Shown in pieces: positions 4,542 to 27,637 of a DNA stretch of 64,000 bases (positions within the stretch are counted from its first letter, which is position 1; every line of letters begins with the position of its first letter). Source of the DNA: Acidobacteriota bacterium (GTDB taxonomy: Bacteria; Acidobacteriota; Terriglobia; Acidiferrales; UBA7541). The DNA is taken from NCBI GenBank assembly GCA_021788095.1, contig JAJYLB010000004.1, forward strand, positions 62,001-126,000. The letters are read 5' to 3'. Below the pieces are notes generated by a model. That model searched no databases. It was given only the letters and a program-made list of their open reading frames with translations, and had not been told where the DNA came from. Made by a program: the position numbers and the translations under genes.

Positions 4542-7265
4542 ATGCGGGGAACGCGAAGAGTATGGAGCGGGGGAAATAAGAAGCTCTTGGGCGCGCTCGC
4601 CTTAGCCGGTCCTCTGCTCCTGGCCGCGCTTGTAGCTCCGGCGGCTGGCCCGGCGCCTCCCTCACCGCAGCATCTCCGCTGCGAATACCTGAAAGATCCG
4701 CTGGGCATCGACGTCTTAAAGCCCCGGTTCGGCTGGTGGCTGGAAGCCGCTCCCCGCGGCGAGACGCAGACGGCTTATCAGGTGCTGGTCGCCTCCCGTC
4801 GCGCCCTGCTACGCCAAGATCGCGGGGACCAGTGGGATAGCGGCGAGGTGCGTTCCAGCGATTCCACCGAGGTTGTCTACGACGGCAAACCGCTCCGCAG
4901 CGGGACCACGTACTACTGGAAGGTGCGCTGGTGGGATAAGGAAGGACAGCCGAGTCCGTATAGCGACCCAGCCCGGCTCGAAATGGGCCTACTCGACCGC
5001 TCCGAGTGGCAAGGGAAATGGATTGGCGGCGGGAACTTGCTGCGCAAAGAGTTCACCCTTGCCGGAAAGGTCGAACGAGCCCGCGTGTATATCACGGCCC
5101 TCGGCTATTACGAATTGCACATCAATGGGCGGAAAATCGGCCACGCAGCGCTCGATCCCGCATGGACGACGTATCCGAAACGCGTGCTCTACCGGACGTA
5201 CGATGTGACGGCCGCGCTGCACCCCGGGCCAAACGTGCTCGGGGTCATGTTAGGCGGCGGCTGGGCCACACAGACCGCCGGAGGACCCGGCTACTACCCG
5301 GCGCCGGCCCTCTTGCTTCAGATGAGCGTCGAATTGGCGGACGGCCGGCAATTGACCCTCGCCAGCGACGCTTCCTGGCTGACTCGCGCCGGCCCCATCG
5401 TGAGCGACAGCGTTTATGACGGCGAAGTCTACGACGCCAGGTTGAAAGAGCCGGGTTGGGATCGTCCCGGCTTCGCTGCTGCCGGCTGGCGGACTGCGCG
5501 GGTGGTTCCCGGCTCGAGCGGGAAGCTTTCGGCCGAAATGATGCCGCCCATTCGCGCGGTGGATACCCTGGCGCCCCAAAGCATGACGAGTCCCCGCCCG
5601 GGAGTCTACGTGTATGACTTCGGCCAGAATTTCTCCGGTTGGGCCGAACTGCGCGTGCGCGGTCCGCGTGGAACCCGGGTGGAGATGCGCTACGCGGAGC
5701 TGCTCTATCCCGATGGCACGATCGATCGCGAAAATCTCCGGCAGGCGAAGGCGCGTGACATCTATGTCTTGAAGGGGGAAGGAGTCGAAACTTACCAGCC
5801 CCGCTTCACCTATCACGGATTCCAGTACGTCGAGCTGACGGGCTTCCCGGGCGCGCCCAGCCTCGATACGCTGCGCGGGCGCGTCGTTCACTCCGCCGTT
5901 CGTCCTGCCGGAAGCTTCGTGGCTTCCAATCCGATCCTCAACCAAATTCAACATCTGATCCACTGGGGCCAACTCTCGAACCTGATGAGCGTACCCACCG
6001 ACTGCAATCAGCGCGACGAGCGCCAGGGCTGGATGGGCGACGCGCAAGCGTCTGCCCAGGAAGCCATGCTGAATTTCCAGATGGCCGCCTTCTATACCAA
6101 TTTCATTCGCGACATCCGCGACGCAGAGAAGGCCGACGGTGAAATTCCCGATACCGTTCCCCACAAATACGGGAGTTATCCGGGCGATCCGGCCTGGAGT
6201 TCGGCTTATCCCCTGCTCTGCTGGTACATGTGGCAGCAGTACGGCGATCGGCGCATCCTCGAGGAGAATTACGAAGGACTCAAAAAGTACGAATCCTATC
6301 TTGAGAGCCGGGCGCAGAATAACGTGCTTCGCTACAGCTATTATGGAGATTGGGTTGCCATCCAGCCCACGCCCGGCGCCCTGGTTTCGGATTTTTACTA
6401 TTACCGGGACACCGAGATCCTCGCTTCCGTCGCCAAAATTCTCGGGCAGGCCGCCGACGCCGCAACTTACTCAAGCCTCGCCGGGCAGATTCGGGCAGCA
6501 TTCAACGCGGCGTTTTTCAACACTTCCACCGGCGAGTACGCAAACGGCTCGCAAACGGCCAACGCCTTGCCGCTGTTTCTGAAACTCCCGCCACAGGGCC
6601 GCGGCGGAGCGGTGTTTGGGCACCTGCTGGACGATGTCGTCTATGGACACAACACGCACGTCACGACGGGCTTTATCGGCGTCAAGTACCTTCTGCCGGT
6701 TCTCACGATGTACGGCCAAAATGACGTGGCTTACGATCTGGCTACGCGAACCACGTATCCCAGTTGGGGTTACATGGTCCGCCGCGGGGCGACCACTCTG
6801 TGGGAACTCTGGCAGGACAAGACCGGCCAGGGAATGAATTCCCACAACCACATTATGTTCGGGAGCGTGGGCGCCTGGTTCTACCGGGCTCTTGGCGGCA
6901 TTGACCTTGCGCGCGGGAGCGAAGGTTACCGTCACATCGTCATTCACCCGCATCTACACGAGGATCTTCCCTGGGCCTCGGCCAGCGTCGATACCGTTCG
7001 AGGCCGTGTTTCCTGTTCCTGGACGCACGAACCCGGCCGAATCGAGATACGCGCGACGGTCCCCGCTAATGCCGACGCCACGGTAGCCGTTCCTCAGGAT
7101 CCCGAGATGACTCGCGTGACGATTCGGGAAGGCCATCGCGTGGTATGGCAGGACGGTCGTTTCGTCCCCGGCGATCCGGGCGTAACTTCCGCCGTCCGCC
7201 ATGGCGATGACTACGTTTTTTCCGTGGGCTCGGGCAGCTACGACTTCGCGCTCAGTGGGGAATGA
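4542..7265 (+). CDS. Alpha-L-rhamnosidase, glycoside hydrolase family 78, secreted
   Basis: A 907-aa enzyme that releases terminal alpha-L-rhamnose from polysaccharides or glycosides, supplying RhaT. It has an N-terminal signal peptide (LLGALALAGPLLLAALVAPAAG) and a fibronectin-like domain (TAYQVLVASRR). The rhamnosidase N domain (LHINGRKIGHAALDPAWT) and concanavalin-like part (YDFGQNFSGWAELRV) come next, then the (alpha/alpha)6 catalytic domain. The family catalytic acid region is NQRDERQGWMGDAQ, and the second acidic residue lies in TTLWELW. The C-terminal beta domain ends GSYDFALSGE. The ATG follows GGGGAGGG with good spacing. The last 11 residues are echoed at the end of the truncated kinase ORF at 10.9 kb. 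Confidence 0.92.
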   Translation: MRGTRRVWSGGNKKLLGALALAGPLLLAALVAPAAGPAPPSPQHLRCEYLKDPLGIDVLKPRFGWWLEAAPRGETQTAYQVLVASRRALLRQDRGDQWDSGEVRSSDSTEVVYDGKPLRSGTTYYWKVRWWDKEGQPSPYSDPARLEMGLLDRSEWQGKWIGGGNLLRKEFTLAGKVERARVYITALGYYELHINGRKIGHAALDPAWTTYPKRVLYRTYDVTAALHPGPNVLGVMLGGGWATQTAGGPGYYPAPALLLQMSVELADGRQLTLASDASWLTRAGPIVSDSVYDGEVYDARLKEPGWDRPGFAAAGWRTARVVPGSSGKLSAEMMPPIRAVDTLAPQSMTSPRPGVYVYDFGQNFSGWAELRVRGPRGTRVEMRYAELLYPDGTIDRENLRQAKARDIYVLKGEGVETYQPRFTYHGFQYVELTGFPGAPSLDTLRGRVVHSAVRPAGSFVASNPILNQIQHLIHWGQLSNLMSVPTDCNQRDERQGWMGDAQASAQEAMLNFQMAAFYTNFIRDIRDAEKADGEIPDTVPHKYGSYPGDPAWSSAYPLLCWYMWQQYGDRRILEENYEGLKKYESYLESRAQNNVLRYSYYGDWVAIQPTPGALVSDFYYYRDTEILASVAKILGQAADAATYSSLAGQIRAAFNAAFFNTSTGEYANGSQTANALPLFLKLPPQGRGGAVFGHLLDDVVYGHNTHVTTGFIGVKYLLPVLTMYGQNDVAYDLATRTTYPSWGYMVRRGATTLWELWQDKTGQGMNSHNHIMFGSVGAWFYRALGGIDLARGSEGYRHIVIHPHLHEDLPWASASVDTVRGRVSCSWTHEPGRIEIRATVPANADATVAVPQDPEMTRVTIREGHRVVWQDGRFVPGDPGVTSAVRHGDDYVFSVGSGSYDFALSGE

Positions 7266-7371
7266 GAAGATTTGTTTTATGGCGGGGGTTCGGCACCTGG
7301 GGTCCGGGCTATCTGACTCGGAATAAAGGAAAAGCCTCGTAAGCCCACATTTTCATTTTCAGCTCTCTCGG

Positions 7372-7527
7372 CAAACCTGCTGAAATTGGCCATCACCGAT
7401 ATCCATGCGAGTACGAGCTCGATGGGCTATTGGACGCGATCGGTGATCCCGCCCACCCCGAACATGAGGAACGGCGAGAAGACTCACGGGAAGGAGTGCG
7501 GCGCGTTACGCACGAGGGAGCCGCCTA
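7372..7527 (+). pseudogene. Remnant resembling plasmid pRiA4b ORF-3-like protein
   Basis: A 51-codon stretch ending at TAG reads KPAEIGHHRYPCEYELDG then LLDAIGDPAHPEHEERRED. The pattern of an aromatic/acidic helix followed by DPxHPEHEE is the conserved C-terminal signature of the pRiA4b ORF-3 family (PF07929, from memory). Nothing recognisable of the rest of the family precedes it, and no start with a ribosome site is visible, so I read it as a decayed fragment. The rest of the 307-base gap between the rhamnosidase and the kinase shows a TAGAAT box at 7530 and nothing else I can name. Confidence 0.45.
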
Positions 7528-7572
7528 GGGTAGAATCGCCGCTGCTCTGATTCTGGCACGGAGGCTTGCCAA

Positions 7573-10398
<2,826 letters not shown>

Positions 10399-10575
10399 CA
10401 ACCGTGATGTTCGTCGCGGGAACAAAGCTCGGCCGCGACGTTGCGCTGAAAGTTTTGCCAGCAGAGTTTGCCGCCGATGCCGTGCGCATGGGGCGTTTCG
10501 AGCGCGAAGCGAAGGTCCTCGCCTCTCTGAATCATCCAAACATCGCTCCGATATACGGGTTCGAGGATTCCAGTG

Positions 10576-10609
10576 GCGCGGGCTCCCGAACCTTCGGGAC
10601 TGCCCGCGC
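10576..10609. repeat. 34-bp hairpin repeat, copy 2
   Basis: This is the same nested inverted repeat as at 7835, GCGCGGGC/GCCCGCGC around CCCGAA/TTCGGG, again in frame in the truncated kinase. Confidence 0.65.
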
Positions 10610-10660
10610 GCTCGTTATGGAGCTGGTCGAGAGCCCAACCCTGGCGGAAAAGATCTCCGG

Positions 10661-10727
10661 TGTAGGGGCGACCCTTGTGGTCGCCCCAGCGCAAGAAACA
10701 AGGGCAGGCGCAAGGCCTGCCCCTACA
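10661..10727. repeat. 67-bp double-hairpin repeat, copy 2 (best preserved)
   Basis: Perfect ends TGTAGGGGC/GCCCCTACA enclose two hairpins, GGGGCGACC-CTTGT-GGTCGCCCC and GGGCAGGC-GCAAG-GCCTGCCC. It is exactly 67 bp, like the other two kinase copies. Confidence 0.8.
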
Positions 10728-10966
10728 AGAGAACAGGAAGTCCCGGTTGATGCGGCGCTGCCGATCGCAAAGCAGATTGCCGAAGGCCTCGAATACGCGC
10801 ACGAGCGCGCCATCGTCCATCGCGATTTGAAGCCGGCGAATGTGAACGTTACGCCGGAAGGCACGGTCAAGCTGCTGGATTTTGGCTTGGCGAAAGCGCT
10901 CGCAGCCGAGACCACGGGCAGCTACAACTGCGCCCTCAGCGGAGAATAAAGCGGCAACGCGGATTC

Positions 10967-11890
10967 TCAGGCGGGGGCGGGGGCGCGGCGAAGCGCCCTG
11001 TGCGCGGCCGCGACCGCCGGGGAAAAGCGAGGCGAAACGACGCGCAGCCTGGGAGACAGCGCGGCGAGACGCGCGGCCGACCGCTCGTCGAAATACGCGG
11101 ATCGCCCGAACACGCCGCCGACGCGGCCGAGCGGGAAATCCTGCTCGCCAAGATTCAGCCGACGAATAACCGTCGCCGCGAGAGCGGCCAGATCGGCTGC
11201 GGCAGCGTCCAGGATCTGGCGAGCCGTTTCATCGCCGGCGTCGGCGGCTTCGGCAACGGCCGGGAAGACCCCCGGCATGCGTTCGAGCGGCTTGCGGGAG
11301 ACGAAGTCGAAGACTTCCGGCCACGAATTCCTCGCGAACGACGAACCGACCGCCCGGGCAAAGTTCGAGGGCGCCGCGCCCTCATCGTGCGATTGGGCAA
11401 TCGCGCGCAGGGCGGAGCGGGCGATGGCGAAGGCGCTGCCTTCGTCGTCGAACCACGGGCCCCAGCCGCCGGCCCGCGCTGTGCGACCGGCGGCATCGCG
11501 GGCGAACGCCGACGATCCGGTTCCGGCAATCAAGACAACCGCCGGGCCGGAATCGGCGACGGCTTCGAGCGCGATATCGAGATCGGCAATGACTTCGATC
11601 TCTGCCGCGCGGAAGCGCGTGGTGAGAAACGCGGCGACGCGGGTGGCGACGCGCGGGTGCCACGCTCCCGCCAGGCCGGCGACTACGCCTTGGACGCTCG
11701 ACGGCTCGGCCTCGGCTGCGGCAAGGGCTTGCGCCGAAGCGCCGTCGAGCGAGGTGAAGGCGCGGGAGAAGCTCGACCGCAGTGGATTCGACGGCCCTCC
11801 ACGGCCCTGCGCCACCAAACGGCCGGAAGCGTCAAGCAAAACGGCGTCGGTCTTCGTCCCTCCGCCATCGAGACCGAGAAAGAAGCTCAC
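10967..11890 (-). CDS. BadF/BadG-type amino-sugar kinase (MurNAc/GlcNAc kinase-like)
   Basis: A 307-aa cytoplasmic kinase of the ASKHA superfamily, BadF/BadG/BcrA/BcrD branch. The phosphate-1 motif FLGLDGGGTKTDAVLLD, phosphate-2 region VLIAGTGSSAFA and GGWGPWFDDEGSAFAIARSAL are those of N-acetylglucosamine kinases and of the clostridial MurK that phosphorylates both MurNAc and GlcNAc. I chose GTG 11890 over the upstream ATG because GGAGGGGA lies at the correct distance. It is divergent from the SSS symporter, with the APC permease and a NamZ fusion beyond, which favours MurNAc or GlcNAc from muropeptides as substrate. Glucosamine kinase activity is an alternative. Confidence 0.75.
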   Translation of the reverse strand: MSFFLGLDGGGTKTDAVLLDASGRLVAQGRGGPSNPLRSSFSRAFTSLDGASAQALAAAEAEPSSVQGVVAGLAGAWHPRVATRVAAFLTTRFRAAEIEVIADLDIALEAVADSGPAVVLIAGTGSSAFARDAAGRTARAGGWGPWFDDEGSAFAIARSALRAIAQSHDEGAAPSNFARAVGSSFARNSWPEVFDFVSRKPLERMPGVFPAVAEAADAGDETARQILDAAAADLAALAATVIRRLNLGEQDFPLGRVGGVFGRSAYFDERSAARLAALSPRLRVVSPRFSPAVAAAHRALRRAPAPA

Positions 11891-12023
11891 CGGAATCCCC
11901 TCCCCTCCGAGCATCCGTCGCCAAAGCCTGCTTTGCCCTGCCGGCGGCGGCCGAGCATTCGATGCCCCGGGGCGGCCGGCGGAAGCCCAGGCGGCGCGTG
12001 CGAAATGACGGGCGAAACCCCAC

Positions 12024-12053
12024 TTGACGCGGCCCGATGCGGCCCGGTAGCAT
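12024..12053 (+). promoter_or_regulatory. Sigma70-type promoter of the SSS/APC operon
   Basis: A TTGACG -35 box and a TAGCAT -10 box are separated by 18 bp, ending 16 bp before the ATG at 12070. The ORF-track start at 12037 falls inside this promoter. The TTGACGCGG context recurs in front of the namZ fusion gene. Confidence 0.5.
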
Positions 12054-12069
12054 CGCGCCCCACGGCACG

Positions 12070-13557
12070 ATGCGCATCAGCGGGCTCGATCTCGGCATAG
12101 TGATCGCGTATTTGGCTGGCGTCACGCTTTTCGGACTCCGCTTCGGCCGCGGGCAAACGAGCCTGCGCGAATATTTCCTGAGCAGCCGCGCCGCTCCGTG
12201 GTGGGCGCTCGCGGGTTCGATCGTCGCGACGGAGACCTCCACGCTGACGATCGTCAGCACGCCGGGAATCGCCTACGCCGGGAATCTGGGTTTCCTCCAG
12301 GTGGTGATGGGGTACCTTGTCGCGCGGGTGATCCTGTGCCTGGTCTTTCTGCCGCGCTATTTTCGAGGTGAATTTTACACGGCTTACCAGTACATCGAAA
12401 AGCGGTTTGGCCCGCGGGTGAAATCGGCCACGGCCTCCGTTTTCCTGGTCACCCGGGCGCTGGCCGAGGGCGTCCGGCTCAACGCGATTGGCAAAGTGGT
12501 GAGCGTGGCGCTGGGAACCGGCGAGAGCGCGTCGGTGGCCATCATGACGGCGCTGACCATCCTGTACACGTTCGAGGGCGGCATGCGCGCGGTGATCTGG
12601 ACGGATATGGCGCAGCTCGTGCTCTATCTGGGCGGTTCGGCGGCCGCGTTTTTCCTGCTGCTCCACAAGATCCCCGGCGGCTGGAGCGAAGTGACGCGAG
12701 TGGCCGCGGCCAGCGGCGACAAGCTTCAGGTCTTCAATTTCCGTCTGAGCCTCACCAACAGCTACACGTTTTGGGCGGGCGTCATCGGCGGCACGTTTCT
12801 GACGATGGCCAGCCACGGCACCGACCAAACGATGGTACAGCGGCTGCTGGCCGCGCGGAACGAGCGCGACAGCAAGAAGGCGCTGCTCGCGAGCGGCGTG
12901 GTGATTTTCGTCCAGTTCTCGCTGTTTCTGCTGATCGGCGTGATGCTCTACGTTTTCGCGCGGCATACCGGCCTGCTCGCTCCGGGCGGCGATACCGACC
13001 GCCTGTTTCCCGAATTCATCGTGCGCTATTTGCCGAGCGGCCTTTCGGGGCTCGTGCTGGCCGCGATTTTCGCGGTGGCGATGTCGAGCGCCAGCGGCGC
13101 GCTGAATTCGCTCGCGTCTTCGACGATCGTGGATTTCCAGCATCTGCGGCGGGGAAAGGCGCTCGACGATCGCCGCTTGGTGAAGACGTCGCGCTGGGTG
13201 ACGGCCGGCTGGGGGTTGGTCCTGGGCGGGCTCGGGCTGCTCCACTGGGGCGTGGTGCTGGTCGCGGGACTCACCATCGCTTCGGTCACCTACGGCGGCC
13301 TTTTGGGGGTCTTCCTGTTGGGGATGGTTAGCCGACGCAGCACGTCCCGCGGAGCCTTGGCGGGACTCGCTGCCGGCCTTGCGATTATGATAGCGGTGCA
13401 ATACGCGCAGCCACTCGCCGGCGTGTTCGGGATCGAGCTGCGCCACACGATTGCCTGGACGTGGTACGTGGCGATCGGAACAATAGTCACATTTTCGACG
13501 GGATGGCTGGCCAGCCGCGCGCTGGGCGGACCGGCGAATCCCCAGGAAGCGCGATGA
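12070..13557 (+). CDS. Sodium:solute symporter (SSS family)
   Basis: A 495-aa inner-membrane transporter with about 13 hydrophobic segments, coupling Na+ to uptake of a sugar or related solute. FFLSSR-like YFLSSRAAPWWALAGSIVATETSTLT in TM1-TM2 and the GALNSLASSTIVDF region are typical of the SSS family. The start at 12070 is preferred because an earlier in-frame ATG lies within the promoter. The gene overlaps the following permease by ATGA, so the two are translationally coupled. Being divergent from a MurNAc/GlcNAc-type kinase and near NamZ, it may import MurNAc or an amino-sugar, but the substrate cannot be read from the sequence. Confidence 0.85.
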   Translation: MRISGLDLGIVIAYLAGVTLFGLRFGRGQTSLREYFLSSRAAPWWALAGSIVATETSTLTIVSTPGIAYAGNLGFLQVVMGYLVARVILCLVFLPRYFRGEFYTAYQYIEKRFGPRVKSATASVFLVTRALAEGVRLNAIGKVVSVALGTGESASVAIMTALTILYTFEGGMRAVIWTDMAQLVLYLGGSAAAFFLLLHKIPGGWSEVTRVAAASGDKLQVFNFRLSLTNSYTFWAGVIGGTFLTMASHGTDQTMVQRLLAARNERDSKKALLASGVVIFVQFSLFLLIGVMLYVFARHTGLLAPGGDTDRLFPEFIVRYLPSGLSGLVLAAIFAVAMSSASGALNSLASSTIVDFQHLRRGKALDDRRLVKTSRWVTAGWGLVLGGLGLLHWGVVLVAGLTIASVTYGGLLGVFLLGMVSRRSTSRGALAGLAAGLAIMIAVQYAQPLAGVFGIELRHTIAWTWYVAIGTIVTFSTGWLASRALGGPANPQEAR

Positions 13558-14984
13558 GCGCCGAACGCGACCCGGGACTGGTTCGCGCGCTGGGCCCGTG
13601 GGCGGCCGCGGCGATCGTTGTCGGCATGATCATCGGCACCGGCATCTTCATCAAACCGGCGGACATGGCGCGAGAAGCCGGCACGGCGGGGCTGGTAACC
13701 CTGGCCTGGGTGCTGGGCGGGATCCTCTCGCTGTTTGGAGCGCTTTGCGCGGCGGAGCTGGGTGCCGCGATTCCGGAGGCGGGGGGAACGTACGCGTACC
13801 TGAATCGGGCGTTTGGGCCGCTGTGGGGATTTCTTTTTGGCTGGACGTATTCGGTGATTGGCGCACCCACCTCCATCGCGACCTTGGCTTCCGGGCTCCT
13901 TGTATTTGCCAGTTTCTTGTTTCCGGCGGTAGCGACGCCGCTGCGCGTGTTCCACGTTTCCCTTTCGTTTCTTCCTGCGCCCGTACTCTTCACTGTCACC
14001 TGGGCGCAGCCGCTCGCCGTGGCGGCCATCGCGCTGGTGACCTTCGTCAACTTTTTCGGGGCGAAGCTGGGCGGCCAGGTGCAGGTGGCGCTGACGATCG
14101 TCAAGATAGCCGCCGTGGTCGCGGTCATCCTGATCGGCTTTTTCCTGGGCAAAGGGAGCGCGGCGAACTTCCATTCCGCTTCCGTTTCGATGGGCCATCT
14201 GGGGATTGCCGCGGCTCTGCTGACGGCGGTAGCGAGCGGCTTGTGGGCGTACGACGGCTGGATCAACCTGGCCTTCGTCGGATCGGAAGTGAAGGATCCC
14301 GGCCGGAACATTCCGCTGTCGATGATTTTCGGCGTGATCGCGGTCTGCGGGATTTACACGGCGATGAGCGCGGCGTGCTTTTACGTGCTGCCGTTCGCAC
14401 AGGTGGCCGCGTCGGCGCACATAGCCTCCGACGTGGTGGCGCGCGCGACCGGGGCCGGCGCCGCGACGTGGATGACGCTGGTGATGATGATCTGCGCCCT
14501 CGGCTCGCTCAATTCGTCGATTCTGACCAACGCCCGCGTGGATTACGCGATGGCGCGCGACGGACTGTTCTTTCGCGTCGCGCGCGGCGTGCATCCGCGC
14601 TATCGCACGCCCGCGAACGCGCTCCTCCTTCAGGGGATTGTGGCCTCCGCGCTGGCGCTTACCGGGACTTTCGAAAGCCTTTCCTTGCTCTACGTTTTTC
14701 TGGTGTGGATTTTCTACGGCGCGCAAACCGCCGGCCTGATCGTTTTGCGGCGTAAGGAGCCCGCTCTGCCGCGGCCGTATCGCACCTGGGGCTATCCCGT
14801 GGTGCCCGCAATCTTCATTCTAAGCGCGCTGGCGCTGGCGGTGGATTTGCTGGTGGAGACGCCGTTGCGCGCCACGTTGGGCCTCGCCGTGATGCTCGCG
14901 GGGCTGCCGTTTTACGCCTACTGGCGGAGCCGAACCCCCCGCGACCGGCCGTCACCCTCGCGGGAGGGTGTAAGAGGCGGGTAG
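13554..14984 (+). CDS. APC-superfamily amino acid permease
   Basis: A 476-aa polytopic permease. VGMIIGTGIFIKPADMAREAG is the TM1 substrate/ion motif of the APC family, followed by LGAAIPEAGGTYAYLNRAFGPLWGFLFGW. About 12 helices are visible. The ATG at 13554 overlaps the stop of the symporter (ATGA), which sets the start; the track ORF from 13461 reads back into the symporter. It probably takes up an amino acid such as the alanine or glutamate released from stem peptides, an inference from context. The C-terminus (SPSREGVRGG) runs into a CACCCTC/GAGGGTG hairpin repeat and looks like a read-through extension. Confidence 0.87.
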   Translation: MSAERDPGLVRALGPWAAAAIVVGMIIGTGIFIKPADMAREAGTAGLVTLAWVLGGILSLFGALCAAELGAAIPEAGGTYAYLNRAFGPLWGFLFGWTYSVIGAPTSIATLASGLLVFASFLFPAVATPLRVFHVSLSFLPAPVLFTVTWAQPLAVAAIALVTFVNFFGAKLGGQVQVALTIVKIAAVVAVILIGFFLGKGSAANFHSASVSMGHLGIAAALLTAVASGLWAYDGWINLAFVGSEVKDPGRNIPLSMIFGVIAVCGIYTAMSAACFYVLPFAQVAASAHIASDVVARATGAGAATWMTLVMMICALGSLNSSILTNARVDYAMARDGLFFRVARGVHPRYRTPANALLLQGIVASALALTGTFESLSLLYVFLVWIFYGAQTAGLIVLRRKEPALPRPYRTWGYPVVPAIFILSALALAVDLLVETPLRATLGLAVMLAGLPFYAYWRSRTPRDRPSPSREGVRGG

Positions 14985-14997
14985 CGCAGCCGCCCGT

Positions 14998-15011
14998 CCC
15001 GAACGTTCGGG
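14998..15011. terminator. Palindrome between convergent genes
   Basis: CCCGAACGTTCGGG is a perfect 14-bp dyad 13 bp after the permease stop and 52 bp from the end of the convergent namZ fusion. There is no T-run, so a terminator role is only suggestive. Confidence 0.3.
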
Positions 15012-15063
15012 ATTCGGAACCTGGCCGTGCATGGGAAGCATCCCGGCCCGCCGCTTTGCGCTT

Positions 15064-17490
15064 TCAGCGCGGATAAATCAGATACTTTCGGCGCATTTCG
15101 CGAAACGCGTTCATGGCGTTTTCCCAGCCGACCACGACGGCGGTCGGAGGCTCGCCCTTTTCCAAATCCGCGACGGTCGACCGCGAGCCGAGCAGCAGGA
15201 TCGTTTTGTCGAGCTGGAAGTCTTGCGGATAGAGCTTGTGGAGGGCGGCCGCCATCTCGACGCCCATGAGCATCGGCGAAAGCGACGCGCGATCGACGAC
15301 GAGCAACTCGATTCCCTGGCAAAGCTGGCCGTGATAGATGCCCGAAGCCGGGGTGAACGCCGTGGGCACGAAACGCACGCCGGGAATGAACTGATGGTTG
15401 AGGTAGTCGGCGAATTCACCGGCATGAATGTAAGGCGCGCCAACCACTTCGAAGGGCGTATCGGTGCCGCGACCGACGGAAACGCCGCCAGCCTGGAGGA
15501 TTTCGATGCCGGGATAGAGGAGGGTCTCGTTCACGGTTCGGAGATTGGGCGACGGAGGAATCCAGTCGAGGCCCGTCTGGTCGAACGTATCGCGGCGATG
15601 CCAGTTCTGCATGGGGATGACCGTCAGATCGGCGCCCAGGTGGTCCTCGGCATCGAACATTTTCGCCAGTTCGCCGAGGGTCATGCCGTAAATCACCGGC
15701 TCGGGGAAAAAGCCGGTGAAGCTCAGCCGGTCGGGATCGAGCATCGGGCCTTCCATCCGTTCACCGCCCAGGGGGTTGGGGCGGTCGAGGACGAAGAAGG
15801 GGATGTGATAGCTGGCCGCGGTTTCGAGGCCGTAGGCCATGGTGGTGGTGAAGGTGTAGAAGCGAACGCCGGCGTCCTGAATATCGAAGACGAGAGCCGT
15901 GATTCCCTTCATCTCCTTGGCCGTGGGTCGCAGCGTGGGACCGTAGAGGCTGTACACGGGCAGGCCGGTGGCTTTGTCTTTCGTATTGCCGACGAAGGTG
16001 TCTTTGAGGCCGAACAGGCCGTGCTCGGGCGAAAAAATCGCGACGAGCTTCACTCCCGGGGCGCGATCGAGGACGTCGATGGTGCGCCGGCCCGCGCGGT
16101 CGCGTCCGGTTTCGTTGGTGATGAGGCCGATGCGCTTGCCTTCGAGGGGAGCGAAATTCTGCTGTTCCAGAACGTCGATGCCGGCGAGCGTTCGGTCGTT
16201 GTGGAGCGTGGCGCCGCCCACCCCGTACGGCCGCTGGGCACCGCGGGCCCGCTCGAGCGGTGAAGTCTCGCCGGTCGTTTCGGTGGCGTCCAGCGCGGCC
16301 GCGACGAGCGTGGCCACCTGTGCCCGCAGGCCGATCGTCGGCGGGCGGATATAGGGATGGACGCGGCTGGAGAGCAGGAGGATGAAGATTTGGCTCGACG
16401 GATCGATCCAGACCGACGTGCCCGTCCAACCGGTGTGGCCGTAGCCGCCGACGGGGAAAAGCTCGCCGCGATTCGACGAATAGGGGCTGTCGATTTCCCA
16501 GCCCAACCCTTCCGTCACAGGAGCCCAGGGCGGCGACTGATTCGACGTCATCAGGCGAATCGTGGCGGGATCGAGGAGCTGGCGGCCGCGATAGGGCCCG
16601 CGGGGAATCTTGCCGTTCTCGAGCATCATTTGCGAGAAGCGAGCGAGGTCGCCGGCGTCGGAAAACAGGCCGGCGTGGCCGGCGACGCCGCCCATCGCGC
16701 GGGCGGTGGGATCTTCCACCACTCCGCGCAAGACCTTCCCTTTTCCGGACATCGGCGAGGCTCCGGGCGGCAGATCGATTTCGAGCGTGGGCGCGATGCG
16801 CGGCAACCAGCGCTGGGGCGGAAGAAAAGCGGTGTGGCGCATGCCGAGCGGCCGGTAGAGGTAGCGCCGAGCGAAAACGTTCAGCGGCAAGCCGGAAACC
16901 TTGTGCACCAACTCTCCGAGCACGATGAAATTGCAATCGCTATAGAGGAACCGCATGCCTGGCGGAAAAACGGGGCGATCGGCGTAAATGATGTGGAGGA
17001 TCGCGTCGTAGCCGGAGACGCCCGGGGGAATGATCGGGTCGGGGCGCAAGCCGGAAAAATGCGTCAAGAGCATGCGGACGGTGATCTGGTCCTTGCCGTT
17101 CGCCCCGAATTCAGGCAGGTAATGAGCGACGGGATCGTCGAGCCGGATCTTGCCTTGCTGGAAGAGCAGCATGATCGCGGGCGCCGTCGCATAGATCTTG
17201 GTGAGCGAGGCGAGATCGAAGATGGTGTCGGCGGTCATTCGCTCGCGCCGAGGCACCAGCGCACGCTCGCCGTAAGCCTTTCGGTACACGATGCGGCCGC
17301 GCTGCGCCACCAGGAGCACCGCCCCAGGCAGCTCATTTGCGGCGATGGCGCCCTGGATGATGGCGTCCACGTCGGAAAGCTTCGGCCGGCCGGGCACGGC
17401 GCCGAGCAGCGAGCCGGCAACGGCGAGAGCCAGGAGCAGGGGAACGAATAAGGTTTTCGACGATCTCGAGGACTTAAGATGCGAGTTCAT
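15064..17490 (-). CDS. namZ: Serine hydrolase (AmiE-like) fused to exo-beta-N-acetylmuramidase NamZ (DUF1343)
   Basis: An 808-aa secreted two-domain protein. After a signal peptide (FVPLLLALAVAGSLLGA), residues 40-400 form a beta-lactamase/PBP4*-like serine hydrolase with Ser95-Leu-Thr-Lys98, YSDCN in place of YxN, and HTGWTG. From about residue 434 to the end lies a full DUF1343 domain (GKRIGLITNETG, IFSPEHGLFG, FDIQDAGVRFYT, DRPNPLGG, VSVGRGTDTPFEV), the NamZ/GH171 exo-muramidase family. In Bacillus subtilis, NamZ works with NagZ and AmiE, a serine-hydrolase-fold MurNAc-peptide amidase encoded in the same operon. The fusion therefore suggests stem-peptide removal plus MurNAc release in one polypeptide. 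The gene has no Shine-Dalgarno sequence, and its promoter implies a leaderless mRNA. Confidence 0.87.
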   Translation of the reverse strand: MNSHLKSSRSSKTLFVPLLLALAVAGSLLGAVPGRPKLSDVDAIIQGAIAANELPGAVLLVAQRGRIVYRKAYGERALVPRRERMTADTIFDLASLTKIYATAPAIMLLFQQGKIRLDDPVAHYLPEFGANGKDQITVRMLLTHFSGLRPDPIIPPGVSGYDAILHIIYADRPVFPPGMRFLYSDCNFIVLGELVHKVSGLPLNVFARRYLYRPLGMRHTAFLPPQRWLPRIAPTLEIDLPPGASPMSGKGKVLRGVVEDPTARAMGGVAGHAGLFSDAGDLARFSQMMLENGKIPRGPYRGRQLLDPATIRLMTSNQSPPWAPVTEGLGWEIDSPYSSNRGELFPVGGYGHTGWTGTSVWIDPSSQIFILLLSSRVHPYIRPPTIGLRAQVATLVAAALDATETTGETSPLERARGAQRPYGVGGATLHNDRTLAGIDVLEQQNFAPLEGKRIGLITNETGRDRAGRRTIDVLDRAPGVKLVAIFSPEHGLFGLKDTFVGNTKDKATGLPVYSLYGPTLRPTAKEMKGITALVFDIQDAGVRFYTFTTTMAYGLETAASYHIPFFVLDRPNPLGGERMEGPMLDPDRLSFTGFFPEPVIYGMTLGELAKMFDAEDHLGADLTVIPMQNWHRRDTFDQTGLDWIPPSPNLRTVNETLLYPGIEILQAGGVSVGRGTDTPFEVVGAPYIHAGEFADYLNHQFIPGVRFVPTAFTPASGIYHGQLCQGIELLVVDRASLSPMLMGVEMAAALHKLYPQDFQLDKTILLLGSRSTVADLEKGEPPTAVVVGWENAMNAFREMRRKYLIYPR

Positions 17491-17492
17491 AA

Positions 17493-17527
17493 CCGGGCTT
17501 ATACAAGCCCGGAGCCGCCCGCGTCAA
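17493..17527 (-). promoter_or_regulatory. namZ-fusion promoter with dyad over the -10 box
   Basis: On the minus strand, TTGACG (17527-17522), an 18-bp spacer and TATAAG (17503-17498) place the transcript start at or within a base of the ATG at 17490. The -10 lies inside the 20-bp dyad CCGGGCTTGTATAAGCCCGG (17493-17512), a natural repressor site or a hairpin. Degenerate copies of this module occur at 21634 and 26318, and a copy 96% identical at 21981-22020. Confidence 0.55.
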
Positions 17528-17634
17528 CTGATACTCGACAGGACGAAGGAAGACCTCTTCGCGCCGCAGCTCCGTCCGGCGAGCGTTCGATTGCGGCTTG
17601 CCACGCTGCGGGACCCAGGATGGCCCGAAAAGGA

Positions 17635-17690: not shown

Positions 17691-20600
17691 TTAGAAATAA
17701 AACTTCAAGCCGAGCTGAAAATGCCGTTCGGTATTGTCGACAGAATCGCGCGCACGCGAGAACACCGAACTGGTGATGGTCGAGCTGTCCGCCAAGTCGT
17801 AGTTGGGATGGTTGAAGATGTTGGTGGCGTCGGCGCGAATCTCGAGATAGCGCCCTTCGCTAAAGAAATAGATCCTCTTGGCGAAATCCATATCGGTGTC
17901 GAACTGCCACGGTAGCCGGAAGAAATTTCGGCCCGTGTTGCCAAGCTCACCCGCTGCGGGGGTAGAGAACCGGGCGATCTGGTCCGGCGTGAATAGGTAG
18001 CGATTATTGTGGTCGGCGGGGTTGGTGTGCAGGCTCGCCATGTTGTGGCTACAGCCGGAGCAGTTTGCTGGCGTTTCCACGTCGCCATCGAACGTAAACG
18101 CTCCGGAATACACGGTAAACGGCCGGCCGGAGGATAGCGTCAGTATGCCGGCCGCTGTCCAGCCGCCGATCACGGATCGCAGCACGGGATTGAGACGGCT
18201 GCCCCAACGCTGCCCGCTGCCGAACGGCAGGTTCCACACCCACTCTCCTTGCAGCGAGTGGGTCCGATCGAAATCGGACGGGGCATAGTTGATCGAGCGA
18301 TCGTGAATATCGTATGGCGTGCTGGAAGCCGACTGGGCCAGGCCGGTATTCACCCGTGTGAAGGTAGGATCGAAGGACCGCGTGTCGAGCGACTTGGCAA
18401 AGGCGTAACTAACTTGAAAAGTAAGTGTGGGGCTGAAGCGGCGCTGGAGCTGGACTTGGAACGCGTTGTAGTTGGACCAGTCGTGGCTGTCGAGCACATC
18501 GAAGGCGCCGGCAAACTGGGGCAGTGGAAAAAAGAAATAGGGGCTCAGGCCGCTCGCCTGCGGCAAGCCCATGCCGTTGACCTCGATTCGCCCCAGACTA
18601 TCGGCGAGGGCTCCCACGGAATTGTGAGAAAGCGTGGAGGGGTAATGACGCTGGACGTACTGAGAGCCGGTCTGGCCAGACGGCACGATCGCACTGAGCA
18701 GTTGATCCATGAGCGGGCTGTCGCCGCCGGCCGCCACGGTCTTAAACGCCTGCAGGAAGTCGGGGCTGATGATGGCCTGGTTGGCGTTGTAGCCGCCATA
18801 GAGGTGTTCGCCATGGCTACCGAGGTAATTGAGCGTAAGCACCATTTTCGACGCGAAAGCGCGCCCGAGGCTCAAACCCCATTCCATGACCTCGGACGGC
18901 CGCCAGTGGGGATCCATGACCGTCACGCCCGAGGGAGAGAACGGAGGCGGCTGTCGCAGTTGCTTTGGCGTGAGGCCGGAGGGCGGCGCCAGCGTTGGGA
19001 GGCCATTGCGCAGCAGGCCACCCGATTCACCATAGGCAACGTTGGTTACTCCGTAGTTGAAGCCGACGAGGTTCTCTATGACCCCCGAGGAGATGGAGAA
19101 GGTGTTAACTGGATTGTAGTAGATGCCGTAATGGGCGCGGACGGACGTCTTCCCCGTGCCGAAGGGATCCCAGGCGACGCCCACGGAAGGCCCGAGGAGG
19201 GCGTTGGAACTCTTATAGAGGTTTCCTGGCGCCCACGCCACCGTGTCGGTGGGCTCTGAGCCGACGATGACGGGCTGATTGGGCGCCAGCAGCCGGTTGC
19301 GAGGGTCAGAGGGTGTGGGCATGGCGTCGAGGCGAAGTCCCAAATCCACCGCGATGTTGGGGCGCACGCGCCAAGTGTCCTGACCGTAGAACTCGTACGC
19401 GGGAAAGACGAGCCTGAAATTGAATTTCGAGCCGCCCGGCTGGTAGGCGGTCCCGGCGGCATTCGAGGTGAAGCCCTGCCCCATGGTGCCAACCCGGCCA
19501 AGCAGGTCATTGATCGTGTAGTCCAAATCCGACAGGTCGTTGCTATTGATGCGGTTCGAACCGCTCGTCGGAATGTTGAAAGCTGAGGTGCTCACCGTAT
19601 CGATGCCTGGGTCGAAGTTGACGTACGGCTCGGCGTCCCAGCCCCCGATCGAACCGCGGTCGTCGACGTGTATGATCTGCTGCAGGTGAAAGCCCATTTT
19701 GAACGTGTGCGCCCCATGCACCCAGGTCAAGTCGTCGTTGATCTGCGGAACCGTGATCGCCCGCAAATTCCCGATATAGTTCTGCAACGGGTTGGAACCG
19801 ATGACGAGATCGTAGGGAGGGTTGCTGGCGTACTTCGGATCGGGATTAGCGAAGTTGTAGAGGTAGTGCTCGTAGCCAAGCACGAACTGGTTGGTCACCG
19901 TCCGGGAGAAGCTTGAGGTCCAGCCGAGGGCGAGGCTTGTAGGCTTGCGGTAGGTGTCCACCACATTCTGCGTGCCTGGGAACGCGGGCAGACCGCCATT
20001 GACGATGTCCGCGATCGTGTTCTGGTGGCCCTGGTACCAGCGGCCGAAAATCGCATTGGACGAGTTGATTTCGTGATCGATCCTCACCGTCAAGTCCACG
20101 TTCTTCTGGGTTTCCGGCGGGTCCCACGTGTAGCTGGCGATGTTGAGGCCATCGCCGATGCTCTTGAAATCGTTGGGGAGGGGCGTCAATTTGATGTAGT
20201 TTTGGAGGGTGGGATCGAGGCCGAGACCTTGCGGGTTGCTGGCCGCCACATTGTAACTGTCAACCGTAATTCCCGGATTCGGGTCGCCGTTGGCGTCGAC
20301 GTAGGACGGGCTGTTCTGGCAGCCCTTGGTGAGGTTCCCGCACGTGCTGGGGTCGATGTAGCGGAAGGTTCCCGCCCGTGCGTCGGCCGTAAGCACGGGG
20401 CTGTGCTCGACGATAGATTCGTGGGCGTGGAGGAACTGGACGTTCGTGAAGAAAAACGTATGGTTCTTCAAGATGGGACCGCCAACGCTCCCGCCCCAGA
20501 TGTTCTGAACGAAATCGGAGCGTCCCAGGCCGTCCAGATTATTGAAGTAGTTATTGGCGTTGAGACGCGGCGTTTGATAGAACCAGAAACCCTCGCCATG

Positions 20601-21353
20601 GAACTGATTCGTGCCGGAACGGGTGATCATGGCGACCTGGCCGCCGCTGGTCGAGCCATACTGGGCGGTGAGGTTGCTGGTGATGAGGCGGAACTCCCCA
20701 ATCGAGTCGGGATTGGTGTTCACGGGAGCGGTCTCCGAGCCGCCGGCCGAGTACTCGTTGATGCCGATGCCATCCAGGGTATAGTTCCAGGCCCGGTCGC
20801 GGCCCCCGTTTACGTTGCTGCACCCGCCGGTGTTGCAGCCGGTGACGACGCCAGGCTGGAAGTAGACCAAGGAGAGCGGATTGCGCCCGCGCGTACCCAC
20901 GATCGGCAACTGCTGGATCGTCTGCTGATTTACCACGTTGCCGAAATTGCCCGACGAGCTTGTCTGGACGAGCTGGGCCGCCCCTTTAACCACGACCTGT
21001 TGCGAGACAGCGCCGATCTCGAGCTTGACGTTCACGGTCATCGGCTGACCGATTGTGACGACGTTGCTGGTTGAAGTGAACGTCTTGAATCCGCTTTTCG
21101 AGACCGCGATAGCGTAGGTGCCGGTGGGTATCGCGTCAAAGACGTAGACGCCTGCCGACGTGGTTTTCGTGGTCAGGCGCTGGTTGGTTCCTTCATTCGT
21201 GAGCACTACGGTCGCGCCCGGAACTGCGGCGCCGCTTGGGTCCGTGACGACCCCGGTCGCCTGGGAACTCGTACCCTGGCCCCAGGCCGAAACGCTCAAC
21301 GCCAGTAGCCCGAGCGTGACCACCAGGCCCCGACACATTTTGTTCCAAACCAT
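17691..21353 (-). CDS. TonB-dependent receptor, Oar-like with N-terminal regulatory domain (receptor A)
   Basis: A 1220-aa outer-membrane protein. The signal peptide (GLVVTLGLLALSVSAWGQ) is followed by a carboxypeptidase-regulatory-like Ig fold (GVVTDPSGAAVPGATVVLT, GTYAIAVSKSGFK). Then come a plug-like domain (GTRGRNPLSLVYFQPGV, DGIGINEYS, TRSGTNQFHGEGFWF) and a large beta-barrel ending FQLGLKFYF with a terminal aromatic. The start at 21353 has a strong GGGGGAGGAACTA ribosome site; the track ORF start at 21449 is in the leader. No SusD-like partner is present. It lies between the namZ fusion and receptor B, whose promoter and leader it shares, so its ligand may be a cell-wall fragment, but that is inference. 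Confidence 0.88.
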   Translation of the reverse strand: MVWNKMCRGLVVTLGLLALSVSAWGQGTSSQATGVVTDPSGAAVPGATVVLTNEGTNQRLTTKTTSAGVYVFDAIPTGTYAIAVSKSGFKTFTSTSNVVTIGQPMTVNVKLEIGAVSQQVVVKGAAQLVQTSSSGNFGNVVNQQTIQQLPIVGTRGRNPLSLVYFQPGVVTGCNTGGCSNVNGGRDRAWNYTLDGIGINEYSAGGSETAPVNTNPDSIGEFRLITSNLTAQYGSTSGGQVAMITRSGTNQFHGEGFWFYQTPRLNANNYFNNLDGLGRSDFVQNIWGGSVGGPILKNHTFFFTNVQFLHAHESIVEHSPVLTADARAGTFRYIDPSTCGNLTKGCQNSPSYVDANGDPNPGITVDSYNVAASNPQGLGLDPTLQNYIKLTPLPNDFKSIGDGLNIASYTWDPPETQKNVDLTVRIDHEINSSNAIFGRWYQGHQNTIADIVNGGLPAFPGTQNVVDTYRKPTSLALGWTSSFSRTVTNQFVLGYEHYLYNFANPDPKYASNPPYDLVIGSNPLQNYIGNLRAITVPQINDDLTWVHGAHTFKMGFHLQQIIHVDDRGSIGGWDAEPYVNFDPGIDTVSTSAFNIPTSGSNRINSNDLSDLDYTINDLLGRVGTMGQGFTSNAAGTAYQPGGSKFNFRLVFPAYEFYGQDTWRVRPNIAVDLGLRLDAMPTPSDPRNRLLAPNQPVIVGSEPTDTVAWAPGNLYKSSNALLGPSVGVAWDPFGTGKTSVRAHYGIYYNPVNTFSISSGVIENLVGFNYGVTNVAYGESGGLLRNGLPTLAPPSGLTPKQLRQPPPFSPSGVTVMDPHWRPSEVMEWGLSLGRAFASKMVLTLNYLGSHGEHLYGGYNANQAIISPDFLQAFKTVAAGGDSPLMDQLLSAIVPSGQTGSQYVQRHYPSTLSHNSVGALADSLGRIEVNGMGLPQASGLSPYFFFPLPQFAGAFDVLDSHDWSNYNAFQVQLQRRFSPTLTFQVSYAFAKSLDTRSFDPTFTRVNTGLAQSASSTPYDIHDRSINYAPSDFDRTHSLQGEWVWNLPFGSGQRWGSRLNPVLRSVIGGWTAAGILTLSSGRPFTVYSGAFTFDGDVETPANCSGCSHNMASLHTNPADHNNRYLFTPDQIARFSTPAAGELGNTGRNFFRLPWQFDTDMDFAKRIYFFSEGRYLEIRADATNIFNHPNYDLADSSTITSSVFSRARDSVDNTERHFQLGLKFYF

Positions 21354-21490
21354 TAGTTCCTCCCCCGTAAGTACCGCTGCGGGATACGATTCGCAATCCT
21401 GTAGCTCGAGACACCACGAAGGCTTTGGTTGGTTTCTGCGCTGTCCCACCCTCGCGCGGAATCCACGTGCGGGTCCTCCTGGATTCTTGC

Positions 21491-21780: not shown

Positions 21781-21795
21781 GCGGCCAAGCGGGCC

Positions 21796-22020
21796 GCCAC
21801 CAGGAGCACCGCCCCAGGCAGCTCATTTTCGGCGATCGCGCGCTGGATGATGGCGTCCACGTCGGAAAGCTTCGGCCGGCCGGGCACGGCGCCGAGCAGC
21901 GAGCCGGCAACGGCGAGAGCCAGAAGCAGGGGAACGAATAAGGTTTTCGACGATCTCGAAGACTTAAGATGAGAGTTCATAACCGGGCTCATTCAAGCCC
22001 GGAGCCGCCCGCGTCAACTG
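21796..22020 (-). pseudogene. Duplicated 5' fragment of the namZ-fusion gene
   Basis: These 225 bp align without gaps to 17306-17530 with 8 differences by eye. They contain the promoter/dyad region, the ATG (21980) and the first about 60 codons (signal peptide through LPGAVLLVA). Homology then ends and the frame runs into the repeat at 21702-21780. The -10 box has mutated (AATGAG in place of TATAAG). It is a truncated copy, not a gene. It lies between receptors A and B. Confidence 0.9.
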
Positions 22021-22179
22021 TTGCCCAACCGCCTGCCGTTCCACAACCGCCTCGAATCTCAAGACGGTGAATGATTCTGCTCGCAGGCCGCCAGCCGCAC
22101 CCCAGCTACGGCCGCGGGCGCACACCGGGAAGCCAGCGGAGCCGCAGTAAATCCGGTCTCCACCTTCCCCAAAACGGAC

Positions 22180-26485: not shown

Positions 26486-27637
26486 TCAGTGATTGGTGAG
26501 ATAAAGATCGGCGACTTCGAGGGCCAGGGCGCCGGGATCGAGATCGGTGCGATTGGCCAGGACGATGACGGTTAAATCGGAGCGGGTGAAGCGCTCGATG
26601 GCAGTGTGAAAACCGATGCTGCTGCCGTAATGCCACATTCGCGAATGGCCGCGATAGGGATTCAGGAACCAGCCGAAGCCGTACTCGACGGGAGCGCCGT
26701 CGGGGCCCTTGGGCCACTGGGCGGAGGGGAGGGGCAGACGAACGGCAGTGATAGCCGGCTTCATTTCGGCGGCGGAGAGCAGCGTGTGATTGCGGAGGGC
26801 CTGGTCCCATTTCGCGAGGTCCATCACGTTGCTATAGACGCCCCCGTCGCCGAGGGTCGCCGACGTGGGACTTTGATCGGTTTCCAGCCAGACGCCGGCG
26901 TCGCGGGTGTAGCCGTAGGCCCGCTGGGGTACATGGTCCCTGCCGTATTGGTGGAGGAGGGTGCCGGTCATGCCCAGCGGCGCGAGGATGCGGCGGTGGA
27001 CAAACTCCGCGAAGGGCATGCCGGAAATCTTTTGGACGATCATGGCGAGCACGCAGTAGCCGGAATTGCTGTATTTCCAGGTCGAGCCGGGCGGGAACTG
27101 GGTGCCGGTCTGCCGCTCCATCAAGTGGAGGACGCCGGCGTCGTGGATTTGCGGGATTTGTTCCCAGGATTTTCCGGGGTATTGCTTGTCCAAGAGGTCT
27201 TCGTAGTCGGCGAGGCCGGAGGTATGGTTCAGCAGGTTGCGGACGGAGATGGCGCGGCCGTAAGGGGGAAAATCGGGGAAGATATCGGTGAGCCGATCGC
27301 TGTATTTCAACTTGCCGTCGTGGACGAGGAGCATGATGGCCATGGCGGTGAACTGTTTGGTGCAGGAAGCGAGGCGAAAATCGGTGCGCGGGGTGACGGG
27401 GCGCCGGCAGCGAAGATCGCGCATGCCGTAGCCGCGGAAGAAGACCGTCTTGCCGTCCTTTCGCACCAGGACGGCGAGGCCGGGCGCAGCGGGCGAAGTG
27501 ACGGAGGAAAAGATCGCGTTGATCCGCGCTGCGGTCGGCTGGCGGAGAGCCGGCGCGGCCGGCCCTGCGGCGGCCCATGCCGCCAGCAGCGCGTACGCGG
27601 CAATCGTGACAACCATCGCCAAACGTTTGCGAGACAT
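26486..27637 (-). CDS. Secreted serine hydrolase, beta-lactamase class C/PBP4* family
   Basis: A 383-aa protein with signal peptide (LAMVVTIAAYALLAAWAAAG). The active-site elements are in order: Ser-Cys-Thr-Lys in LASCTKQFTAMAIML, Tyr-Ser-Asn in YSNSGYCVLAMI, and HYGSSIGFHT as the third box. The start at 27637 has GAGGGGGATATC upstream and replaces the track start at 27697. Members hydrolyse D-amino-acid peptides, esters or amides, and few are true lactamases. It is divergent from the D-aminoacylase-like gene. Together with the namZ-fusion hydrolase and PBP4 it makes three penicilloyl-type serine hydrolases in 16 kb. Confidence 0.85.
   Translation of the reverse strand: MSRKRLAMVVTIAAYALLAAWAAAGPAAPALRQPTAARINAIFSSVTSPAAPGLAVLVRKDGKTVFFRGYGMRDLRCRRPVTPRTDFRLASCTKQFTAMAIMLLVHDGKLKYSDRLTDIFPDFPPYGRAISVRNLLNHTSGLADYEDLLDKQYPGKSWEQIPQIHDAGVLHLMERQTGTQFPPGSTWKYSNSGYCVLAMIVQKISGMPFAEFVHRRILAPLGMTGTLLHQYGRDHVPQRAYGYTRDAGVWLETDQSPTSATLGDGGVYSNVMDLAKWDQALRNHTLLSAAEMKPAITAVRLPLPSAQWPKGPDGAPVEYGFGWFLNPYRGHSRMWHYGSSIGFHTAIERFTRSDLTVIVLANRTDLDPGALALEVADLYLTNH

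Follow-up and report, generated by a model that had tools for sequence, protein, structure and literature searches.

The salvage of muropeptides has been studied in depth in enterobacteria, Pseudomonas, Bacillus and Tannerella. In Tannerella forsythia, MurT is a sodium symporter whose gene shares an operon with murK and murQ (PMC5790795). Here, we describe a related gene set in a 64,000-nucleotide stretch (the window, C17:62001-126000) of an Acidobacteriota draft genome of 4.24 Mb in 111 contigs, assembled to 93.5% completeness. A serine hydrolase fused to the exo-muramidase NamZ is encoded in the window next to an SSS-family symporter, an APC-family permease and a BadF-family sugar kinase. 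The fusion, the symporter and the kinase very probably form the outer half of a salvage pathway for muropeptides and N-acetylmuramic acid (MurNAc), whose MurQ etherase is encoded on another contig.

In T. forsythia MurK, T94 and S133-L135 make room for the lactyl group and the catalytic residue is D95; human NagK can also take MurNAc (PMC10465942). The PF00144-DUF1343 architecture, exemplified by YP_439122.1, was tabulated in 2008 (PMC2605481). A literature search combining Acidobacteria and peptidoglycan recycling returned no paper on such a pathway by title or abstract.

Results

An earlier note, made from the letters of the stretch, had proposed that NamZ is fused in one secreted protein to a beta-lactamase-fold hydrolase, beside an ATGA-coupled SSS symporter and APC permease and a MurK-like kinase; all four genes are confirmed (Table 1). 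In the fusion protein, Pfam places a Beta-lactamase domain (PF00144) at residues 41-379 (E 4e-69), NamZ_N at 454-653 (E 4e-76, 255.6 bits) and NamZ_C at 657-806 (E 9e-41, 140.6 bits), the two NamZ profiles being matched over their full length. The N-terminus is a signal-like hydrophobic stretch, such stretches being called throughout by a simple hydrophobicity scan and not by a trained signal-peptide predictor. Within the hydrolase domain, S95, K98, Y183, D185, H352 and G354 are invariant in 76/76 sequences and the motifs S95xxK98, Y183-S-D185 and H352-T-G354 are invariant or nearly so, providing the expected SxxK, Tyr and His-Thr-Gly elements. The NamZ residues E489, D536, D569, R570 and E607 are identical in 95/95 sequences, the acidic ones being typical of an active site. 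An AlphaFold2 model (mean pLDDT 82, pTM 0.53) shows two mostly confident domains joined by a poorly modeled linker near residues 404-431. Its top PDB match in Foldseek is 4k05, a Bacteroides fragilis DUF1343 structure that covers the NamZ half (TMt 0.90, E 4.8e-37, 38% identity), and S12 hydrolases such as EstG follow. The protein thus bears the complete domains of a NamZ (GH171) exo-beta-N-acetylmuramidase and is predicted to release MurNAc from non-reducing ends.

The N-terminal domain is a putative amidase. It is 43% identical to a copy linked to a GH3 domain and 35% identical to E. coli YfeW, a murQP-operon protein; its best NCBIfam match is PBP4B (186 bits, under the 385 cut-off), and its fold neighbors include EstG, EstB and class C beta-lactamases. 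The last three resemblances would suit the same pathway with a PBP4B-type D,D-peptidase or an esterase trimming peptides in place of a MurNAc-L-Ala amidase, a variant that we consider unlikely. NamZ reportedly prefers peptide-free MurNAc, and for this reason an amidase is the better-fitting partner. YfeW and Bacillus subtilis AmiE are both encoded in murQ operons (PMC5061867), so that homology favors neither the peptidase nor the amidase. The window encodes a further PF00144-like hydrolase at 26654-27541, 30% identical to the N-terminal domain of the fusion.

The kinase has as its top PDB match 8zo3, a MurNAc/N-acetylglucosamine (GlcNAc) kinase (E 6e-22). Its phosphate loop, DGGGTKT, and the Asp in IADLDIAL align with those of orthologs, in keeping with the ASKHA/BadF fold. 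The pocket positions that correspond to T94 and S133-L135 in the Tannerella enzyme were set by sequence alignment, not by structure. Across the window protein and its cluster orthologs, the catalytic Asp is preceded by A, T, S or G and in no case by Asn; the second site reads GG followed by variable residues, as in human NagK. By the published criteria, such a pocket is MurNAc-permissive, admitting MurNAc without proving a preference for it. The NagK-like GGW pocket, a match to the NCBIfam N-acetylglucosamine kinase model (105 bits, under the 370 cut-off) and the presence of AnmK in the genome could also mean that the kinase and symporter serve mainly GlcNAc, with MurNAc handled elsewhere, for example by AnmK acting on anhydro-MurNAc. 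We regard this as quite improbable, since adjacency of the kinase to murQ recurs in distant Blastocatellia and the substrate of MurQ is MurNAc-6-phosphate, the top PDB match is named for both sugars, and a second cluster of the same genome may serve other amino sugars. The latter (L073:6149-12495, on contig C98) pairs another SSS gene and BadF kinase with SIS and epimerase-like genes, and its substrate is probably another amino sugar. Elsewhere in the window, a Ser/Thr-kinase-like gene (7573-10398) is followed immediately by a partial second copy of itself (10284-10949).

The SSS and APC genes overlap by ATGA at 13554-13557. PDB relatives of the symporter are SSS transporters, including 5nv9, and its relatives within the same taxonomic order share 50-87% identity with it. 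We infer that it imports MurNAc, on the basis of its conserved linkage with murQ and NamZ, the fusion of a symporter homolog to hydrolase and NamZ in record L128, and the precedent of Tannerella MurT. AmpG was rejected as the importer, as it has no match in the genome. The APC permease may take up freed amino acids. A single operon in the window is ruled out by gene orientation, the kinase being divergent from the SSS gene and the APC gene convergent with the fusion gene.

The earlier note had also placed MurQ outside the window and proposed a search of the genome. This is correct for the window, yet a TIGR00274 search of the genome yielded one match over the cut-off, at C111:24746-25609 (342 bits versus 302), which rules out absence from the genome. 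This MurQ is 45% identical to that of E. coli; an overlapping murA follows it, and a GH3-PF00144 fusion with a NagZ-like GH3 part and a diphthamide-synthase-like gene precede it. The SSS symporter, the kinase and MurQ therefore occur in one genome but not in one operon, as murQ sits on another contig.

We examined the NamZ neighborhoods of relatives, the closest of which are metagenome-assembled genome records labeled Acidobacteria or Acidobacteriota, mapping homologs by tblastn. In 17/17 same-order loci covered on both sides, the kinase, SSS, NamZ, GH3-hydrolase fusion, murQ and murA lie within ~16 kb, so that the arrangement is not due to chance. The kinase, SSS and murQ genes are contiguous in these relatives but on differing strands. 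Because one half of this cluster is matched in the window and the other on C111, the window genome, or its assembly, holds the conserved cluster broken in two. More distantly, the Blastocatellia record L080 carries on one strand the kinase (4564-5553), murQ (5617-6531), SSS (6549-8057), GH3 (8082-10001) and the hydrolase-NamZ fusion (9998-12460), the last two overlapping at 9998-10001, and the gene order is the same in L084, L086 and L140. In genome G033, nagA stands between murQ and murA. The GH3-hydrolase protein lacks a signal-like stretch in the window's genus (L040, L041, L042 and L071), unlike in most other genera; given this loss, its step may have changed compartment there and become cytoplasmic.

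A 235-nt direct repeat covering the promoter and first ~65 codons of the fusion gene flanks a TonB-type receptor gene (17691-21449), with a truncated remnant as the second copy, which suggests a duplication at the cluster breakpoint. A TTGAC...TATA-like box at window positions 17491-17530 ends a few bases ahead of the fusion ATG, so that the fusion mRNA may be leaderless. The split over C17 and C111 and the duplicated 5' end could be taken to mean that the window half is a decaying, unused remnant cut from murQ by rearrangement beside TonB genes, but this is very improbable, as none of the four frames is disrupted, the active-site residues have been retained and L041 and L042 share the promoter-like box.

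Table 1. Features of the window and of related loci (window numbering unless a record is named)
Feature	Coordinates	Strand	Evidence
BadF-family sugar kinase, MurK-like	10967-11914	-	PF01869 BcrAD_BadFG, E 6e-31; 8zo3; pocket positions
SSS-family Na+/solute symporter, proposed MurNAc importer	12037-13557	+	PF00474, TIGR00813 over cut-off
APC-family amino-acid permease	13554 (ATG)-14984	+	PF13520; ATGA overlap; in 15/17 complete same-order loci
Serine hydrolase (AmiE/PBP4B-like S12)-NamZ fusion	15064-17490	-	808 aa; Pfam, Foldseek, motifs, hydrophobic N-terminus
Fusion gene 5' end and promoter region, one of two direct repeat copies	17305-17539	-	95% identical to 21795-22029
Shortened second copy of fusion gene 5' end, past the TonB-type receptor gene	21795-22029	-	Repeat D1
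GH3-hydrolase fusions without signal-like N-terminus, window's genus	L071:2778-5675, L041:3060-5918		

A domain search that does not favor fusions returned 33 NamZ matches, of which 15 are fused in frame, 16 are standalone and 2 are cut by contig ends; a wider set, gathered with a fusion as the query, is biased toward fusions. The NamZ tree requires at least 8 changes between fused and unfused states (~7 without the contig-truncated L051), so that fusion and separation occurred repeatedly and a single origin is rejected. Nor is the fusion unique to this organism, as it is also found in Verrucomicrobiota, Planctomycetota, Pseudomonas, Burkholderia, Nitrospirillum and Methylobacter records. In the acidobacterial record L128 (8465-12748), SSS, hydrolase and NamZ share one frame of 1427 aa, with the SSS part 52% identical to the window symporter. 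At its junction, no ATG precedes the hydrophobic stretch, and only GTG codons inside that stretch could start a separate gene. A similar frame of 1379 aa in L064 (1051-5190) has, however, an internal ATG and a signal-like stretch. Both triple frames come from drafts, in which a stop codon may have been lost to a sequencing error. Elsewhere, the Halorussus limi plasmid NZ_CP096661.1 (L160, 4625-13191) carries AnmK, a peptidoglycan-recognition protein, an AmiE-like hydrolase, a glycoside hydrolase, NamZ and NagZ together. Similar matches occur on other haloarchaeal plasmids; no murein is expected in a haloarchaeon, and the set looks like one for scavenging wall fragments.

Discussion

Three checks, each able to refute the salvage reading, instead support the release of MurNAc and stem peptide, Na+-driven uptake and phosphorylation that the earlier note had envisaged. 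First, the genome contains murQ, with murA and a nagZ-like gene beside it, and these make up the other half of a cluster whose parts are contiguous in relatives. Second, unrelated gene orders in Blastocatellia keep the kinase, murQ, SSS, nagZ and hydrolase-NamZ together. Third, the kinase has MurNAc-permissive positions and a MurNAc/GlcNAc kinase as its top PDB match. In the proposed pathway, the secreted fusion would act on cell-wall fragments outside the inner membrane, where the N-terminal serine hydrolase most likely strips the stem peptide from MurNAc and the NamZ half would then remove the exposed non-reducing terminal MurNAc. The symporter would import MurNAc with Na+, the kinase would convert it to MurNAc-6-phosphate, and MurQ would split this into GlcNAc-6-phosphate and D-lactate. 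The GH3-hydrolase fusion encoded beside murQ would remove the alternating GlcNAc, both fusions together peeling the glycan chain from one end. The pathway would presumably serve either turnover of the cell's own wall or scavenging, the substrates of the enzymes and the transported molecule being predicted ones.

Several observations weigh against this salvage pathway. The kinase pocket also fits GlcNAc kinases. Family S12 includes D,D-peptidases and esterases as well, and amidase, esterase and beta-lactamase are not told apart by the fold search. In many relatives, NamZ occurs without the hydrolase domain, so that the fusion must be dispensable. The window genome has the cluster split, and searches of its 93.5% complete assembly found neither NagA nor NagB. 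Across the relatives set, NagA is over the cut-off in 30/41 genomes, the four of the same genus all among them; this rejects a genus-wide loss and makes an assembly gap the likely explanation for NagA.

Tentatively, and with some doubt, we also propose that the NagZ-hydrolase and hydrolase-NamZ proteins are complementary amidase-glycosidase fusions that form an alternating exo-peeling pair on glycan chains. The pair would be tied to the symporter, physically so where SSS, hydrolase and NamZ are joined in triple fusions. Within the genus of the window, it would be split between compartments, the NagZ fusion having lost its signal peptide and the NamZ fusion having kept it.

A conserved import and kinase cluster free of the phosphotransferase system (PTS) would reveal the way in which members of a common soil phylum recycle wall sugars or scavenge them. 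Additionally, the cluster offers candidate SSS-type MurNAc importers and a candidate bifunctional amidase/exo-muramidase useful in wall analysis.

Among described systems, E. coli murQ-murP-yfeW shares with the present set its MurQ and, as the operon partner of murQ, the N-terminal domain homolog YfeW (PBP4B), but it relies on PTS uptake and its operon contains neither NamZ nor a fusion. In B. subtilis, ybbC corresponds to namZ. The murQ-murR-murP-amiE-nagZ-ybbC cluster of that species has the same exo-degradation enzymes, AmiE, NagZ, NamZ and MurQ (PMC5061867), but there the PTS transporter MurP phosphorylates on import and the enzymes are separate, whereas here an SSS symporter and a kinase take the place of the PTS, and one copy of the hydrolase is fused to NamZ and a second to NagZ. 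T. forsythia murT-murK-murQ likewise combines an importer of the sodium-symporter superfamily, an ATP-dependent ASKHA-type MurNAc kinase and MurQ (PMC5790795, PMC10465942), and NamZ1 and NamZ2 are cited for that organism. Its three genes form one operon, whereas here the kinase and SSS genes are divergent and murQ lies on a separate contig; the present set also differs in its fusion of NamZ to a serine hydrolase and in the APC permease coupled to its symporter. Proteins of the PF00144-DUF1343 architecture, which PGAP annotates, have the same two domains, and a Burkholderia plasmid copy, annotated as a NamZ-domain protein, differs in that no gene within 6 kb of it is annotated as murQ, SSS or kinase. 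Thus, each enzyme, the pathway and the two-domain hydrolase-NamZ fusion are already known, while the pairing, within a single conserved cluster of Acidobacteriota, of one hydrolase fused to NagZ and another fused to NamZ, the adjacent SSS/kinase route and the triple fusion seem to be new.

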